Assembly: GCF_003860565.1 (NCBI RefSeq)
Contig: NZ_CP034157.1
Location: 2,294,001 to 2,358,000, forward strand
DNA length: 64,000 bases
Reading direction: 5' to 3'
Source: Cloacibacterium normanense
Lineage (GTDB): Bacteria > Bacteroidota > Bacteroidia > Flavobacteriales > Weeksellaceae
This document shows positions 47,604 through 52,124 of this stretch, piece by piece; within the stretch, counting starts at the first letter, position 1, and every line of letters begins with the position of its first letter. Below the pieces are notes generated by a model that did not search any database, had not been told where the DNA came from, and saw only the letters and a program-made list of their open reading frames with translations. The translations under genes and the position numbers were made by a program.

Positions 47604-47633
47604 AAACCTCAGCGAAAGTTGAGGTTATTTTTT
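47604..47633. terminator. Bidirectional terminator
   Basis: AACCTCA (47605-47611) pairs with TGAGGTT (47620-47626), with a GAAA-capped inner pair. It lies between msrA and the convergent unknown gene. Confidence 0.75.
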
Positions 47634-48539
47634 TGCATACTTTTCTAATATATGAGATGTCACTTCTTTGAGTGTCTTACCATTTTCAGGATGTTTACCG
47701 TAATGTGTAAAAAATTCTACATGATTATTAGATTTATCATACCAAACTTTTCCTTGTGAATTTTCTTCGGTTAAAGTATCTGGTCTAGTAATTTTTCTCA
47801 ACAATTTCGCTTCTTCATTTAATCCTAATACCTCAGCTCCTTCAATCTTTTCACCACAAAAAACCTCTACATAAATTTCTCCATTCCAATACATACATTC
47901 TTTTTTCCTTTCTAGATTTTTTTCTTCAGGAATAGCCAAAATTTGTTTTGGAACATTTACAAATTGGGCTGGAGTTGGTTCTAGTTTTGATAGATTATTT
48001 TTCTGAACAATCACTGAATCTATCTCTTGAATTCTCTTTTCTTCTTTTTCTCCTGAAAAAAAATCACCTTTCTTAAGAATAAATCCTGAGACTAAAAAAA
48101 TCCCTATTAAACCAAAACTATTACTGTGCTTGGTAATAAATTCCGGCAAAGTAAAAACGGGACTATTGGTAATATTGATGATTATATCCGAAAAACTTTT
48201 GGTTTCTTTTACAGATTCTTTTCCATCAATGCTTATTTTGATTTTAGAATTTTTAATTGGATTTTGGCCTGTAAAATCTTTGAAATCTGCATATCCTAAA
48301 TATGTACTCAAATCATTAAGAATAGTTGTTTTAATTTTATAATCCTCATTATTCTCAACCAAAATTTTATAATAGGTTTCAAATGTCTTATAACTTAATG
48401 GGATTCCAAAATCTTCGAGCAATACTAATTCTAAATTTTTCGAAATTCCACTAAATGAACTTTCTGTAGTAGACTTTTTAGCTTTCTCATAAACTTGAAA
48501 AACCAATTCTCTTTTTTGTAAAAAAAATTCTGACATCAT
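47625..48539 (-). CDS. Single-pass membrane protein of unknown function, part of the TACGG regulon
   Basis: 304 aa. A helical cytosolic N-terminal domain (about 1-100, KAKKSTTESSFSGISKNLELVLLEDFGIPLSYKTFE, resembling a DNA-binding or adaptor helix bundle) is followed by a membrane helix (about 140-157, SFGLIGIFLVSGFILKK) and an extracytoplasmic C-terminal domain with KECMYWNGEIYVEVFCGE (two Cys) and a YGKHPENGKTLKEVTSHIL end. I do not recognise it. A TACGG-type dyad lies 62 bp upstream at 48601-48614. The layout suggests signal transfer across the membrane, but this is a guess. Confidence 0.65.
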   Translation of the reverse strand: MMSEFFLQKRELVFQVYEKAKKSTTESSFSGISKNLELVLLEDFGIPLSYKTFETYYKILVENNEDYKIKTTILNDLSTYLGYADFKDFTGQNPIKNSKIKISIDGKESVKETKSFSDIIINITNSPVFTLPEFITKHSNSFGLIGIFLVSGFILKKGDFFSGEKEEKRIQEIDSVIVQKNNLSKLEPTPAQFVNVPKQILAIPEEKNLERKKECMYWNGEIYVEVFCGEKIEGAEVLGLNEEAKLLRKITRPDTLTEENSQGKVWYDKSNNHVEFFTHYGKHPENGKTLKEVTSHILEKYAKK

Positions 48540-48600
48540 TCTGGGAAACTTAAATGATTAAAATAAGGCATGAAGATAACTGCTTTTTTACGATAAAAAT

Positions 48601-48614
48601 TATGGTTTTCCGTA
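48601..48614 (-). promoter_or_regulatory. TACGG-N4-CCGTA dyad, copy 1 (one mismatch)
   Basis: The plus strand reads TATGGTTTTCCGTA. On the minus strand it starts at 48614, exactly 36 nt ahead of TATCTTCA (48578-48571), a weak -7 box for the 47625 gene. Two CCAAAAACTTT repeats lie just beyond (48636-48657). Confidence 0.6.
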
Positions 48615-48752
48615 AAATCATAAAACTAATTTTTTCCAAAAACTTTCCAAAAACTTTCTAACACCTTCATCATAATTCGTAGTTAATTTGCCTCATAAAT
48701 CAGTGATTAATAAATCATTACTAAACAAATTTACAAAACTGATTTTAATTAA

Positions 48753-48898
48753 TAGCGAAATGAAACGTTGATTTTTTTGAACTGGGAAGCAAAATTATTC
48801 TTCGTTTCTTTTTCGCTAATACTTCCCAAAATTTAAGAAGCGCTTCTTTTCTAAAAACGTGTAACACCACTTGCAATCGGTTTTGCAAGGAAGAACAC
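48753..48898 (+). ncRNA. Hairpin-rich leader ahead of the 56-aa ORF
   Basis: TAGCGAAA (48753-48760) with TTTCGCTA (48811-48818) and GAAACG (48762-48767) with CGTTTC (48803-48808) make a long stem. GGGAAG (48784-48789) in its loop matches CTTCCC (48822-48827) outside, a possible pseudoknot. Then come AAGAA-GCGC-TTCTT (48835-48848) and CTTGCAA-TCGGTT-TTGCAAG (48870-48889) closed by GTGT/ACAC (48859-48862, 48895-48898). It may be a regulatory 5' leader or a separate RNA. Promoter position is unclear. Confidence 0.45.
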
Positions 48899-48926
48899 TA
48901 TTGTCCATTTTTTTAAAATTATAACA

Positions 48927-49097
48927 ATGTTAGAAATTATTCTTATGCTTTTGGGATTAGCATTTCCTAATAGTGACACCAATACAGTAACCAGTGATGA
49001 CCCAAACCAAACAACTATAGAAAATACACAGTCAGTAGATGATGGTTCTGGTGGAACAGGAGGAAACGGTGCTCAAAATCCACCTAAAACTCCTTAA
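48927..49097 (+). CDS. 56-aa small protein, hydrophobic start and Gly-rich tail
   Basis: ATG 48927 to TAA 49097 encodes MLEIILMLLGLAFPNSDTN followed by a Thr/Asp/Asn-rich stretch and a C-terminal DDGSGGTGGNGAQNPPKTP. It sits between a structured leader and a clean terminator (49104-49131), just upstream of the TPR kinase gene. The N-terminal hydrophobic segment lacks basic residues, so it is not a classical Sec signal. It may be a membrane-tethered or exported peptide, possibly a signal for the kinase; this is speculation. Clear ORF limits and a terminator support it being a real gene. Confidence 0.55.
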   Translation: MLEIILMLLGLAFPNSDTNTVTSDDPNQTTIENTQSVDDGSGGTGGNGAQNPPKTP

Positions 49098-49103
49098 TTT
49101 TTT

Positions 49104-49131
49104 AAAAGAGCAGATTTTCTGCTCTTTTTTT
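49104..49131 (+). terminator. Terminator between the small ORF and the kinase gene
   Basis: AAAAGAGCAG (49104-49113) pairs with CTGCTCTTTT (49119-49128), then T's. Confidence 0.88.
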
Positions 49132-49157
49132 GTAATTTAGAGTAAAAATTTTTCCCG

Positions 49158-50801
49158 TTGAAAAAACTAATTCCACTTTTATTTTTAACCATTATATTTT
49201 CGTGCACTAAAAACGCTGTAGAATCTGATTCTGCAAAAAATAAAACATATTTAAAAGCCGCAAACTATAGAGATGCAGGCGAAAAAGACTCGGCTTATAT
49301 TTATTATGCATTAGCAAAAGATGAATTTTTAAAAATTAACGATTCACTTTTCATGGCAAAATGCCTGATTAACATGGCAATTATCCAGACCGATCAAGGT
49401 GATCATTTTGGAGGAATAGAAACTTCATTAGAAGCCGAAAAAATGCTGAAAAAAAATGACAGCATCACTAAACAACTGAAATCATCAAATTATAACAACT
49501 TGGCATTAGCAAGTGCAAAACAAGAAAACTATAAAAATGCCGAAAAATATTATGATTTAGCTCTTCAAAATTCATCAGAGCCAGAATCTCAATACATTTA
49601 TTATAATAATATTGCGAATAACTATTTAGATTTAAAAGATTTCGGTAAAGCAAAAGAATTTTACAAAAAAGCCCTAAAAACTGAAGACAGTATTGCATAT
49701 GCAAGAACATTGAATAATTTTGGGAGATGCTTATTTGCCGAAAATAAAAACATAAATGTTTTAAATTATTTTCTGCAATCTCTCAAAATCAGAGAATCAA
49801 AACAAGATTATTGGGGACTGAATTCTAGTTATGCTACTCTCGCTGATTATTACAAAGAAAAAGAGCCTCAAAAAGCACTGTTCTATGCAGGAAAAATGTA
49901 TAACATCGCTCAAAAAATAGAAAGTCCAGACGATAGATTAGAAGCGCTAGAAAAATTAATCACTTTAGAAAAATCAGACCATTCTAAAAAATATTTTTCC
50001 GAATATCAAAAGCTGAATGACAGCTTGCAAACAGCAAGAGCAAAAGCCAGAAACCAATTTGCACTGATTCGCTACGAAACCGAAAAAGCCAAAACCGAAA
50101 ACATAGAAAAGGAAAATTATATCTTTAGACAAAAAGTAGCGATTGCATTTCTATTTACTGGTTTATTGGTTGGTTTATTTTGGTATTTAAGAAGAAAAAA
50201 AAGACTGGAACAAGAAAAAGAAATTGAGGTAAAAAACACTCAAATTAAATATTCTAAAAAAATACATGATGTAGTAGCCAATGGTTTATACCAAACTATG
50301 GTAGAAGTAGAAAATCAAGAAGAACTGGACAAAGAAAAACTCCTTGATAAACTCGAAAAAATGTATGAAGAATCAAGAGACATTGCTCATGAAGACCTTA
50401 ATGAACAATTAGAAAAAGAATTTTCGGTTAAGCTTTTTGAAATGATTTCTTCTTATTCTTCACCTCAGCAAAAAGTTTTAGTCATAGGAAACGAGCAGAA
50501 TATTTGGCAAAATGTATCTCAGAATATACAATCAGAAATTTTCTATGCGCTTAGAGAACTCATGATTAACATGAAAAAACACAGTCAAGCTACATTGGTT
50601 TTGGTAAAATTTGAAAAAATTGAAAATATTTTAAAAATAAAATACACCGATAATGGCCTTGGAATGGGCAATGCAGAAAATAAAAAACTTTCTGGAATCA
50701 AAAATACGGAAAACCGTATTGAGAACATTGGCGGAGATATTAATTTTGAAAAAAATCTACAAAAAGGATTACAAGTAAACATGTCTATTCCAATTCATTA
50801 A
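49158..50801 (+). CDS. TPR-domain lipoprotein sensor histidine kinase
   Basis: 547 aa starting at TTG 49158. The signal peptide KKLIPLLFLTIIFSC with lipobox Cys16 begins at once, which supports this start. About five TPR-like helix pairs (about 30-280, e.g. NYKNAEKYYDLALQNSS and DFGKAKEFYKKALK) lie outside the inner membrane. A membrane helix (about 328-345, VAIAFLFTGLLVGLFWYL) and a coiled coil lead to the kinase: H-box YSKKIHDVVANGLYQTM, N-box ELMINMKKHS, G-box DNGLGMG. The response regulator follows 4 bp later. Its gene contains copy 2 of the TACGG dyad with a -7 box. Confidence 0.9.
   Translation: MKKLIPLLFLTIIFSCTKNAVESDSAKNKTYLKAANYRDAGEKDSAYIYYALAKDEFLKINDSLFMAKCLINMAIIQTDQGDHFGGIETSLEAEKMLKKNDSITKQLKSSNYNNLALASAKQENYKNAEKYYDLALQNSSEPESQYIYYNNIANNYLDLKDFGKAKEFYKKALKTEDSIAYARTLNNFGRCLFAENKNINVLNYFLQSLKIRESKQDYWGLNSSYATLADYYKEKEPQKALFYAGKMYNIAQKIESPDDRLEALEKLITLEKSDHSKKYFSEYQKLNDSLQTARAKARNQFALIRYETEKAKTENIEKENYIFRQKVAIAFLFTGLLVGLFWYLRRKKRLEQEKEIEVKNTQIKYSKKIHDVVANGLYQTMVEVENQEELDKEKLLDKLEKMYEESRDIAHEDLNEQLEKEFSVKLFEMISSYSSPQQKVLVIGNEQNIWQNVSQNIQSEIFYALRELMINMKKHSQATLVLVKFEKIENILKIKYTDNGLGMGNAENKKLSGIKNTENRIENIGGDINFEKNLQKGLQVNMSIPIH
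50705..50748 (+). promoter_or_regulatory. TACGG dyad, copy 2, with intragenic -7 box
   Basis: TACGGAAAACCGTA (50705-50718) lies inside the kinase coding sequence, and TAATTTTG (50741-50748), a perfect TAnnTTTG, starts 36 nt after the dyad start. It would drive the response regulator from a start near 50754. The dyad codes for the conserved NTENRI of the kinase, so coincidence remains possible. Confidence 0.55.
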
Positions 50802-50804
50802 AAA

Positions 50805-51470
50805 ATGATGTTTAATAAAGTACTAATAGCCGAAGACCACGAAATCAGAAATCTAGGAGTCATCAAAACTCTAGAAGAATTGCAAATTACAGATTATGAG
50901 TTTGTAAGTTATTGTGATGATGCCGTTTCTAAACTAAAAACTGCCATTTCAGAAGAAAAACCTTATGATTTACTCATTACGGATTTATCTTTTGACACCG
51001 ATTTCCGTGAGCAAAAATTGAGTTCTGGACAAGAACTCATCGCAGAAGTGAGACAATTGCAACCCAATATTAAAATCATCGCTTTTTCTATTGAGAAAAA
51101 ACCTTCTATTATTGATGAACTTTTTAAAAAACATCACATCAATGGTTTTGTAAGCAAAGGCAGAAATGATGGGAAAGAACTGAAAAGTGCCATCAAAAAA
51201 GTTTTTGAAAACAAAATTGTGATTCCTCAAGAAATCATTAATTCCATCAGAAATAACTCATTTGAATTTACCAATTATGATGTGTATTTGGTAGAACTTT
51301 TGGCTAAAGGTTGGCGTCAACAAGAAATAGAAGACCATTTTAAAAACACCAATATAAAACCAGACAGCAGAAGTTCTATAGAAAAGAGATTAAGTGAACT
51401 CCGCGAAAGTTTAAGCGCCAAAAACAATACGGAAATGGTGGTGCTTTGTAAAGATTTGGGGATTATTTAA
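50805..51470 (+). CDS. Response regulator with LuxR-like output domain
   Basis: 221 aa. The receiver domain (about 4-125) has the acidic pair in IAEDHE, the phospho-acceptor Asp in LLITDLSFD near 58-63, and Lys in GFVSKGR. The C-terminal domain (about 150-215) is a LuxR-type HTH, with YDVYLVELLAKGWRQQEIEDHFKNTNIKPDSRSSIEKRLSELRE as the recognition region, somewhat diverged from the standard. It follows the kinase by 3 bp. It is the natural candidate to bind the TACGG-N4-CCGTA dyads around this locus. Confidence 0.92.
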   Translation: MMFNKVLIAEDHEIRNLGVIKTLEELQITDYEFVSYCDDAVSKLKTAISEEKPYDLLITDLSFDTDFREQKLSSGQELIAEVRQLQPNIKIIAFSIEKKPSIIDELFKKHHINGFVSKGRNDGKELKSAIKKVFENKIVIPQEIINSIRNNSFEFTNYDVYLVELLAKGWRQQEIEDHFKNTNIKPDSRSSIEKRLSELRESLSAKNNTEMVVLCKDLGII

Positions 51471-51532
51471 AATGAATTAAATCAACTTATAAAAACTCAT
51501 TTGGAATAATTTTTGGAAGAGTTTTCCTGTTT

Positions 51533-51546
51533 TACGGTTTTCCGTA
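51533..51546 (+). promoter_or_regulatory. TACGG-N4-CCGTA dyad, copy 3
   Basis: TACGGTTTTCCGTA, extended to a 16-nt TTACGG...CCGTAA form. It starts 36 nt ahead of TAAATTTA (51569-51576) and lies 53 bp before the 72-aa membrane protein. A TTTTTGGAAGAGTTTTCC stretch lies upstream, similar to that beside copy 1. Confidence 0.7.
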
Positions 51547-51599
51547 AGGAAATGAATTCACCCTATCGTAAATTTACCAAACAGATAAACTAAAAACCA

Positions 51600-51818
51600 A
51601 TGATTATGAATCTTTATAACAAATCTACGCTTAAAACATTGGCAACTTGCAGTTATATTTTATTATTTGCTGCTAATTTCCTTCTGGTAACGGAAATCAT
51701 TTTATATGTGCTGAAAGTTCAGAAAAATTTTCAAGAAAATATTTTGTATTTCTTTTTTATGAGCCTTATTATCACATTTTTTATGATTAAAATGTATTTA
51801 AAATCAGAAGAAATCTAG
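51600..51818 (+). CDS. Small two-helix membrane protein of the TACGG regulon
   Basis: 72 aa (or 70 from the ATG at 51606). It has two membrane helices (LATCSYILLFAANFLLVTEIILYVL and ILYFFFMSLIITFFMIKMYL) joined by a short polar loop (KVQKNFQEN). No family is recognised. Placed under a TACGG dyad and between the response regulator and a structured RNA, it is likely a target of the kinase pathway, perhaps a feedback protein acting on the membrane kinase (guess). Confidence 0.65.
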   Translation: MIMNLYNKSTLKTLATCSYILLFAANFLLVTEIILYVLKVQKNFQENILYFFFMSLIITFFMIKMYLKSEEI

Positions 51819-51866
51819 TCAAATTTCATAAATTTTGTAATATAAAAACAAAAAATAAAACCCAAT

Positions 51867-51910
51867 TACGGAAAACCGTAATGAAACAAATTTTTATCAG
51901 TATACATTTG
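51867..51910 (+). promoter_or_regulatory. TACGG dyad, copy 4, with -7 box of the ncRNA
   Basis: TACGGAAAACCGTA (51867-51880; TTACGG...CCGTAA in full) starts exactly 36 nt ahead of TACATTTG (51903-51910), a perfect -7 box. The dyad centre is about -42 from the expected start near 51916, a usual activator position. Confidence 0.75.
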
Positions 51911-51915
51911 CAGAA

Positions 51916-52064
51916 GTAATCTTCTTCATACTCGATTTTTAGCAGATGCAAGTATAAAAAATTTTTATTAGACTAATAACTTTTTATATAACAACACACT
52001 TGCATCAAGAGTAGAGTAAGTTTTAAACGGGGAATGGTGAGAGAAATCTCACCATTTATTTTTA
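51916..52064 (+). ncRNA. Structured small RNA with its own promoter and terminator
   Basis: From about 51916 the transcript can fold TACTC (51929-51933) with GAGTA (52009-52013), GATGCAAGT (51945-51953) with ACTTGCATC (51998-52006), and the inner TTATTAG-A-CTAATAA (51965-51979), then a terminator AATGGTGAGA-GAAA-TCTCACCATT (52033-52056) with a U-rich tail. No open reading frame of note lies in it. It does not match tmRNA, SRP RNA or RNase P as I know them. This fills the 318-bp gap between the small membrane gene and the GNAT gene. Confidence 0.65.
52033..52064 (+). terminator. Terminator of the structured RNA
   Basis: A perfect 10-bp stem with a GAAA loop (52033-52056) followed by TATTTTTA. 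Confidence 0.85.
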
Positions 52065-52124
52065 TCAGTACTTTTAAAATTATAGATTTTTTAAATCAAA
52101 GAAGAAAACACAAGCGAAAACATG

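Follow-up and report, generated by a model that had tools for sequence, protein, structure and literature searches.

A palindrome at fixed promoter spacing probably connects a two-component system of Cloacibacterium normanense with anti-phage defence genes

The window analysed here comprises 64 kb (positions 2294001-2358000) of the 2.76-Mb genome of Cloacibacterium normanense, and the coordinates given for its features are window positions. It carries a sensor histidine kinase with N-terminal tetratricopeptide repeats (TPR) and a response regulator, and both genes are surrounded by palindromic dyads of the form TACGG-N4-CCGTA, each placed 36 nt before a -7-like promoter box. The same element recurs throughout the bacterial family in genomes that carry this regulator, and the genes downstream of it are enriched in anti-phage defence. 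With a probability of roughly 0.78, we take the TPR-sensor kinase and the NarL/LuxR-type regulator to be a defence-activating two-component system, which would be autoregulated from within the kinase gene. The size of this regulon and its richness in anti-phage defence genes go beyond the earlier note on this DNA.

All four dyads reported in that note, each standing 36 nt before a -7-like box, were found again. Site 1 (48601-48614, minus strand; TACGGAAAACCATA read on this strand) is imperfect and contains TATGG in place of TACGG. The other three lie on the plus strand and match the dyad exactly: site 2 (50705-50718, inside the kinase gene near its 3' end and also seen in the orthologs), site 3 (51533-51546) and site 4 (51867-51880). 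The distance from dyad start to box start is 36 nt in all four cases. In Bacteroidota the housekeeping promoter consensus consists of TAnnTTTG at -7 and, some 19-21 nt further upstream, TTG at -33. The -7 sequence is perfect in two of the four sites, namely site 2 (50741-50748, plus strand, TAATTTTG) and site 4 (51903-51910, plus strand, TACATTTG), and carries one change at site 3 (51569-51576, plus strand, TAAATTTA) and two at site 1 (48571-48578, minus strand, TATCTTCA). With at most one mismatch these four were the sole dyad matches in the window, and with at most two mismatches 19 matches were obtained, compared to a mean of 5.07 and a maximum of 9 in 100 shuffles. In the whole genome the exact dyad occurs at 8 places, three of which belong to the window, and a reversed control pattern at none; the composite of dyad and box was matched 35 times with at most three mismatches, compared to 13 times for the control. 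The earlier note had placed the dyads around one two-component system. They do surround the kinase and regulator genes, but the set is not local, since further copies with the same spacing are found elsewhere in the genome.

The spacing was analyzed in a sample of 197 genomes of the family, allowing a gap of 8-38 nt (31 spacings) between the exact dyad and TAnnTTTG. A gap of 22 nt, corresponding to 36 nt from start to start, accounted for 401 of the 470 matches, leaving 69 for the 30 other gaps together (2.3 each). A random occurrence of the dyad without a box at 36 nt, which the earlier note had named as the outcome that would speak against it, is the opposite of this result. The reversed pattern gave 0 matches at the exact spacing and 5 over all spacings. 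On the basis of the shuffles, the reversed-pattern controls and this spacing test, a chance origin of the dyads was rejected. Within the order (119 genomes) the exact composite was present in 13 of 14 genomes of this family, in 7 of 14 of one other family and in none of the 91 from the remaining families; one site from the other family (genome G282) resembles the kinase-internal site by eye.

For a closer view of the element, 160 regions with 167 exact sites (165 distinct) were fetched among the matches listed, leaving out regulator-adjacent sites, and they are thus not a random draw from the 401 composites. Each of the 165 distinct sites has A or T at both central dyad positions, which the search had not constrained, and the flanking positions are T in 76% and A in 89%, so that the operator approximates TTACGG-nWWn-CCGTAA. 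Outside the dyad, its flanks and the box the sequence is near background composition. In 160 of the 167 sites, a set without those next to the regulator or inside the kinase gene, the dyad centre falls outside open reading frames (ORFs) of at least 120 amino acids; by the same ORF criterion, coding sequence makes up 70% of the DNA concerned. A TTG at 19 nt before the -7 box, as expected of a -33 element, was found in 1 of 165 sites. At 20-25 nt its frequency is zero, as the searched dyad letters dictate; this tells no more than that the dyad lies where the -33 element would be, and an argument from this absence was dropped. Just downstream of the dyad (gaps of 15-19 nt to the box) 22 TTG were counted in the 165 sites compared to about 27 expected, that is, no surplus.

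The motif follows the regulator closely. At least one exact composite, as found by searching with the TAnnTTTG box itself, was present in 110 of the 125 genomes that have a regulator match at E<=1e-20 and in 3 of the 72 that have none (Fisher p=4e-34, a value which is too small because the test treats related genomes as independent). Counted by genus, motif and regulator occur in an identical set of 12 out of 33 genera (p=2.8e-9), and 397 of the 401 sites lie in regulator-bearing genomes. Furthermore, related genomes keep the motif next to the same kinase and regulator, a check proposed together with the original observation: in 25 of 30 ortholog loci composites (allowing two mismatches overall, no more than one of them in the dyad) lie inside the 3'-terminal part of the kinase gene as well as downstream of the regulator gene. 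Of the remaining loci, L045 has the internal composite only, and L049, L058, L059 and L060 have only composites behind the regulator. An additional regulator gene, accompanied by another dyad, is present in some Chryseobacterium loci. Moreover, in L174 (1657-1968) the dyad target is a short protein that by eye corresponds to the output domain of the regulator alone and is perhaps a feedback modulator.

The target of site 2 had been proposed to be the response regulator itself. This site does precede the regulator gene, yet it lies within the kinase coding sequence and not in intergenic DNA. Its conservation was compared at the codon level. Parsing succeeded for 68 of 70 loci, all but L049 and L298, and gave 42 distinct kinase ends once identical ones had been merged; the dyad is exact in 22, has one mismatch in 18 and two mismatches in 2. 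For the 38 ends encoding N...RI the codons were AAT in 38 of 38, NNG in 38 of 38 (all 26 Thr being ACG), CGT or CGC in 38 of 38 and TTT in 38 of 38, and ATT was used in 33 of 33 cases where Ile provides the first base of the box. For comparison, nearby Ile codons vary (ATT 17, ATC 13, ATA 4) and nearby Arg uses at least four codons. The four ends (six loci) outside this set have Met for Ile, and two of these four carry the two-mismatch dyad. Evidently, the kinase-internal dyad is under synonymous constraint. That site 2 is a coding by-product of the kinase motif N-T-E-N-R-I was rejected because the spacer amino acids change and the DNA half-sites mostly stay.

In the C. normanense genome sites with at most two mismatches precede cas9 (its ATG lies 28 nt after the box) and cas1-cas2. 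Further sites precede an operon encoding a DNA methyltransferase together with an MzaC-like helicase and, judged by eye, a GHKL-type ATPase; others lie before a gene for an 865-aa unknown protein next to a DUF2779-like gene (by eye) and before unknown genes (sites 2140292, 357472 and 1274292). A PADLOC scan of ten proteins from these places gave matches for five, namely Cas9 (2.7e-65), Cas1 (2.3e-106), Cas2 (1.3e-46), the DNA methyltransferase (1.4e-82) and the type II/MzaC helicase (3.4e-46). One more site, G000:C1:1707152 (L107 8618-10196), lies between a 460-aa ORF and about 900 nt in which no ORF reaches 60 aa and which may hold an RNA gene. The 460-aa ORF had been regarded by eye as a Cas9 remnant on account of LGIDLGSNS in the preceding sequence; PADLOC gave no match for it and it was not counted.

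Across the family, 150 of the 167 fetched sites have a same-strand ORF start within 500 nt and 17 have none. The 150 target genes form 111 homology clusters, 89 of which have a representative of at least 100 aa. Out of 30 targets drawn at random from these 89, 12 matched PADLOC models at E<=1e-6 compared to 2 of 20 genes at least 5 kb away (one-sided p=0.02); at E<=1e-20 the numbers were 10 of 30 and 1 of 20 (p=0.018). The matches comprise KwaA (6.5e-75), a cytosine methyltransferase (1.3e-90), SngA (2.7e-33), SIR2 (2.3e-66), the cyclase of CBASS (3.7e-110), HamA (5.6e-108), GajA (1.3e-250), PbeA (2e-24), PDC-S02 (2.1e-14), AriA (8.4e-42), Ppl (1.4e-21) and a weak HTH_VI (8.1e-8), so that Kiwa, Hachiman, Gabija, CBASS, PARIS-like and SIR2 systems are represented. 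When models instead of genes were counted, bearing in mind that one protein may match many models, 412 were matched by the 89 targets, 173 by 77 genes at least 5 kb away and 10 by 83 background genes (45 from the window and 38 from the flanks of regulator loci; these were not thinned per homology cluster, which makes their count somewhat low). The 5-kb control is itself contaminated by JetD (L153), located on the same strand and region as a JetA-like target (by eye; Pfam DUF3375 in the target set), and by Vsr (L236) within a Hachiman-containing region. Among the 25 Pfam families shown, out of 89, were AAA_15 (4), AAA_21 (4), HSDR_N_2 (2), N6_N4_Mtase (2), DUF3375 (1) and a secretion tail (2). 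Taken together, the genes downstream of the dyad are enriched in anti-phage defence.

The product of the kinase gene (49158..50801, plus strand) has at its start what by eye is a lipoprotein-like signal (LTIIFSC); TPR repeats and, again by eye, a membrane helix come next. Family searches detected TPR_12 (1.3e-13), a LiaS/UhpB/NarX-like C-terminal half (LiaS 2e-12 and UhpB 3.1e-8, both below their cut-offs) and HATPase_c at only 0.017. An N-terminal TPR part is thus joined to a histidine kinase module, as in the layout of FimS. The regulator (50805..51470, plus strand), which is the proposed dyad binder and has been reported to be 100% identical in C. normanense strain IMET F, has a canonical receiver (Response_reg 1.7e-8) with E10, D11, D60, S95 and K118 invariant in 14 orthologs. 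In its predicted structure helices span residues 157-217. Foldseek returned full-length matches to RcsB, VraR and DesR with E down to 3.2e-11 and a query TM-score (TMq) of 0.46-0.65, and in a sequence profile search RcsB and DesR chains matched into the output region. With a receiver in the sequence and a helical helix-turn-helix output domain in the model, the regulator is, as modelled, of NarL/LuxR type.

In the mechanism which we propose, the kinase (49158-50801) and the regulator (50805-51470) would pair as a two-component system, and a dimer of the phosphorylated regulator would bind the palindrome TTACGG-nWWn-CCGTAA about 42 bp before the transcription start, in place of the -33 element, and recruit RNA polymerase to the -7 box. 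Regulators of the NarL/LuxR type bind inverted repeats and activate from about -42. A palindrome about 42 nt before the presumed start together with the strict spacing to the -7 box fits a class-II activator, and we infer that the regulator binds and activates directly at the dyad, with phosphorylation as the probable control and a signal presumably received by the kinase. Through the promoter embedded in the kinase coding sequence the regulator would activate its own gene in a positive autoregulation; it would also activate the genes flanking the locus as well as species-specific anti-phage systems elsewhere, which in C. normanense would be cas9, cas1-cas2 and the methyltransferase operon.

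Several results weigh against this proposal, in addition to the relatedness of the genomes underlying the Fisher test. The Pfam LuxR/GerE domain was not detected in the regulator, and its output fold relies on a model with a predicted TM-score (pTM) of 0.66, whose full-length fold matches mostly have a root-mean-square deviation above 5. The exact motif is missing from 15 of the 125 regulator-bearing genomes, and the kinase-internal dyad has decayed to two mismatches in four loci (L058, L059, L307 and L060, two distinct ends). As regards the targets, 18 of the 30 sampled and five of the ten scanned in C. normanense gave no PADLOC match, and 22 of the 111 target clusters, with representatives below 100 aa, lay outside the scan. 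The matches of PbeA, PDC-S02 and AriA rest on protein parts or common ATPase/helicase domains, and that of HTH_VI is weak. Moreover, many targets look by eye like small lipoproteins or membrane proteins, and single housekeeping-like targets occur (Tex 1 and DAHP synthase 1 among the Pfam families shown).

Some of these points would also suit a genuine operator whose regulon mainly serves an envelope-stress or competition response, comparable to FimS-FimR and its fimbriae, and in which defence genes are a recruited minority. We regard this as a possible, if somewhat unlikely, explanation. It agrees with the window's protein targets being unknown or membrane proteins, with the many lipoproteins or small secreted proteins seen by eye among the targets, with the sampled targets lacking a PADLOC match (18 of 30), with the three sites before unknown, non-defence genes in C. 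normanense and with the weakly FimS-like TPR part of the kinase. The excess of PADLOC models (412 for the targets versus 10 for the background genes) and the unrelated defence genes that directly follow a site (KwaA, HamA, GajA and the cyclase) argue against it. That the regulator acts as a repressor, holding costly defence off until the kinase signal releases it, is improbable. A dyad sitting where the -33 element would be suits a repressor, and repressors of defence genes have been described, RptR being listed as one; the fixed spacing to the -7 box and the lack of a TTG surplus downstream of the dyad point instead to activator-dependent promoters.

It is still less probable that another, co-inherited regulator binds the dyad and that the 50805 regulator is merely one of the targets. 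Three genomes contain the motif without a regulator match at E<=1e-20, and binding by the 50805 regulator is itself deduced; however, the dyads on either side of its gene (25 of 30 loci), the confinement of nearly all sites to genomes which carry it (397 of 401) and a palindrome near -42, the familiar position for the NarL/LuxR family, favour this regulator. Finally, that the motif has no regulatory role and simply travels with mobile islands, perhaps as a piece of an integration site, appears very remote. Between species some sites are identical; the site before the CBASS cyclase, for instance, is shared by G140 and G179, the latter of which lacks the regulator. Against such an origin speak the mostly unrelated targets (111 clusters for 150 genes), a base composition close to background beyond dyad, flanks and box, and the synonymous constraint acting on the kinase-internal copy. 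Activation of defence genes by the TPR-sensor kinase and its regulator is hence the reading which we retain.

By mechanism, a two-component regulon is nothing new; what is unusual is its content, an operator common to many unrelated defence systems. The nearest known system in concept is Gac/Rsm, which acts post-transcriptionally via RsmA and small RNAs. The Pseudomonas study reports that Gac/Rsm coordinates anti-phage and antibacterial defence (PMC11888443), and as in the present case one two-component pathway would serve a large, species-variable defence set genome-wide. The flavobacterial system differs in that an operator with fixed promoter spacing is found directly at each target, and it belongs to another phylum with an unrelated sensor. 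In sensor type FimS-FimR of Porphyromonas gingivalis is nearest, a pair of TPR-containing sensor kinase and response regulator likewise from Bacteroidota, for which it has been suggested that FimS may bind a polypeptide (PMC11053733). The window kinase scored 33.7 bits in the FimS family (NF053520) compared to a cut-off of 600 and is no member of it, and the dyad targets are rich in defence genes instead of a fimbrial cluster. CovR, too, is a response regulator. It is reported to control CRISPR-Cas9 immunity in Streptococcus agalactiae, one defence system in an unrelated organism, and the listing of that work makes no mention of an operator common to many systems (PMC12216829).

WYL-domain regulators and RptR are listed as transcriptional regulators of defence-island genes (PMC9122601, PMC12255303). 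From the listings and general knowledge, these are encoded in or near the island, unlike one chromosomal two-component system serving scattered systems. A pair of RR-like and HK-like proteins tied to restriction-modification and paraMORC genes is a different, local element (PMC8011034). RcsB, VraR, LiaR and DesR share domain layout and fold with the regulator (about 16-25% identity in structural alignments), whereas its operator and regulon are its own. Among the open-licence PubMed Central papers listed by the searches, most of them judged from the listing, no description of this operator or regulon was recognised. The Gac/Rsm study speculates that defence-coordinating pathways in other phyla await discovery (PMC11888443), and the recurring operator suggests a single switch for bacterial immunity, under which much of the immune repertoire could stand. 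The coordination of the many defence systems that a bacterium possesses is poorly understood, and a readable operator makes this question testable: regulon members become predictable in any of these genomes, and genes of unknown function that follow a dyad can be treated as defence candidates.

The remaining putative targets in the window are less well characterized. Site 1 faces the gene of a 304-aa protein (47625..48539, minus strand) for which no Pfam or NCBIfam match was obtained; a related gene of about 300 aa (judged by eye, unaligned) lies divergently upstream of the kinase in six other displayed loci (L116, L286, L290, L297, L303 and L306). Although site 1 is weak, its counterpart in the promoter of the divergent gene has one mismatch in seven of the eight loci in which the region is present (A5 alignment) and three in L299. 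Site 3 precedes the gene of a 72-aa protein (51600..51818, plus strand), a membrane protein by eye. Behind site 4 lies a candidate small RNA (51912..52065, plus strand) with an intrinsic-terminator-like end. In the loci searched, matches over its full length were confined to the Cloacibacterium-type genomes G000, G080 and G039, other loci giving short, scattered ones; its GATGCAA/TTGCATC pairing is replaced by AATGCAA/TTGCATT in L322. Rfam gave three sub-threshold matches and none at threshold for the locus, this RNA and the leader described below included.

Between site 1 and the kinase gene a structured leader (48690..48926, plus strand) precedes a conserved gene for a 56-aa peptide (48927..49097, plus strand; MLEIILMLLGLAF...GGNGAQNPPKTP). 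Seven helices were derived for the leader from an alignment of 32 loci; L294, where the peptide gene lacks a leader of this kind, was excluded. In this same alignment, which naturally favours the structure, 95.0% of the cells pair and 21 pairs are changed on both sides, a result reached by none of 500 shuffles; sliding the helices lowered the pairing to at most 55.6%. The leader looks like a new structured RNA. The window copy of the peptide has no Pfam or NCBIfam match. A regular expression for its pattern, M[IL][QE]..LMLLGLAF...GG.TGQ.PP, found relatives in 32 of 40 named loci, bearing in mind that some of the eight negative loci end short upstream and that one unrelated gene (L107) was matched as well. 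These relatives comprise 53-77 aa with a hydrophobic start and a Gly/Pro-rich end and are encoded upstream of the kinase. The gene maps of L322, L113 and L305 lack the peptide gene (the L322 and L113 regulators being 100% and 88% identical), and the peptide is therefore not strictly required. Speculatively, it could be a ligand of the kinase. In a wider scheme, which we consider doubtful, the 53-77-aa peptide under the leader RNA would be an alarm signal for the periplasmic TPR domain upon infection or lysis and would switch on all dyad-bearing defence systems, incoming islands being domesticated by gaining or carrying the standard 16-bp operator.

Finally, in several Chryseobacterium and Epilithonimonas loci (L285 6732-12037, L297 6733-10906 and L306 7523-11415) the dyad behind the regulator precedes a recurrent operon. 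It encodes a small Cys-containing protein, a protein with a repeated motif (MGKFIITQR...KAGNGEIILTSEGY), an HsdR-N-like protein (by eye), a Cys-rich protein and further small genes, and is possibly an undescribed defence operon.

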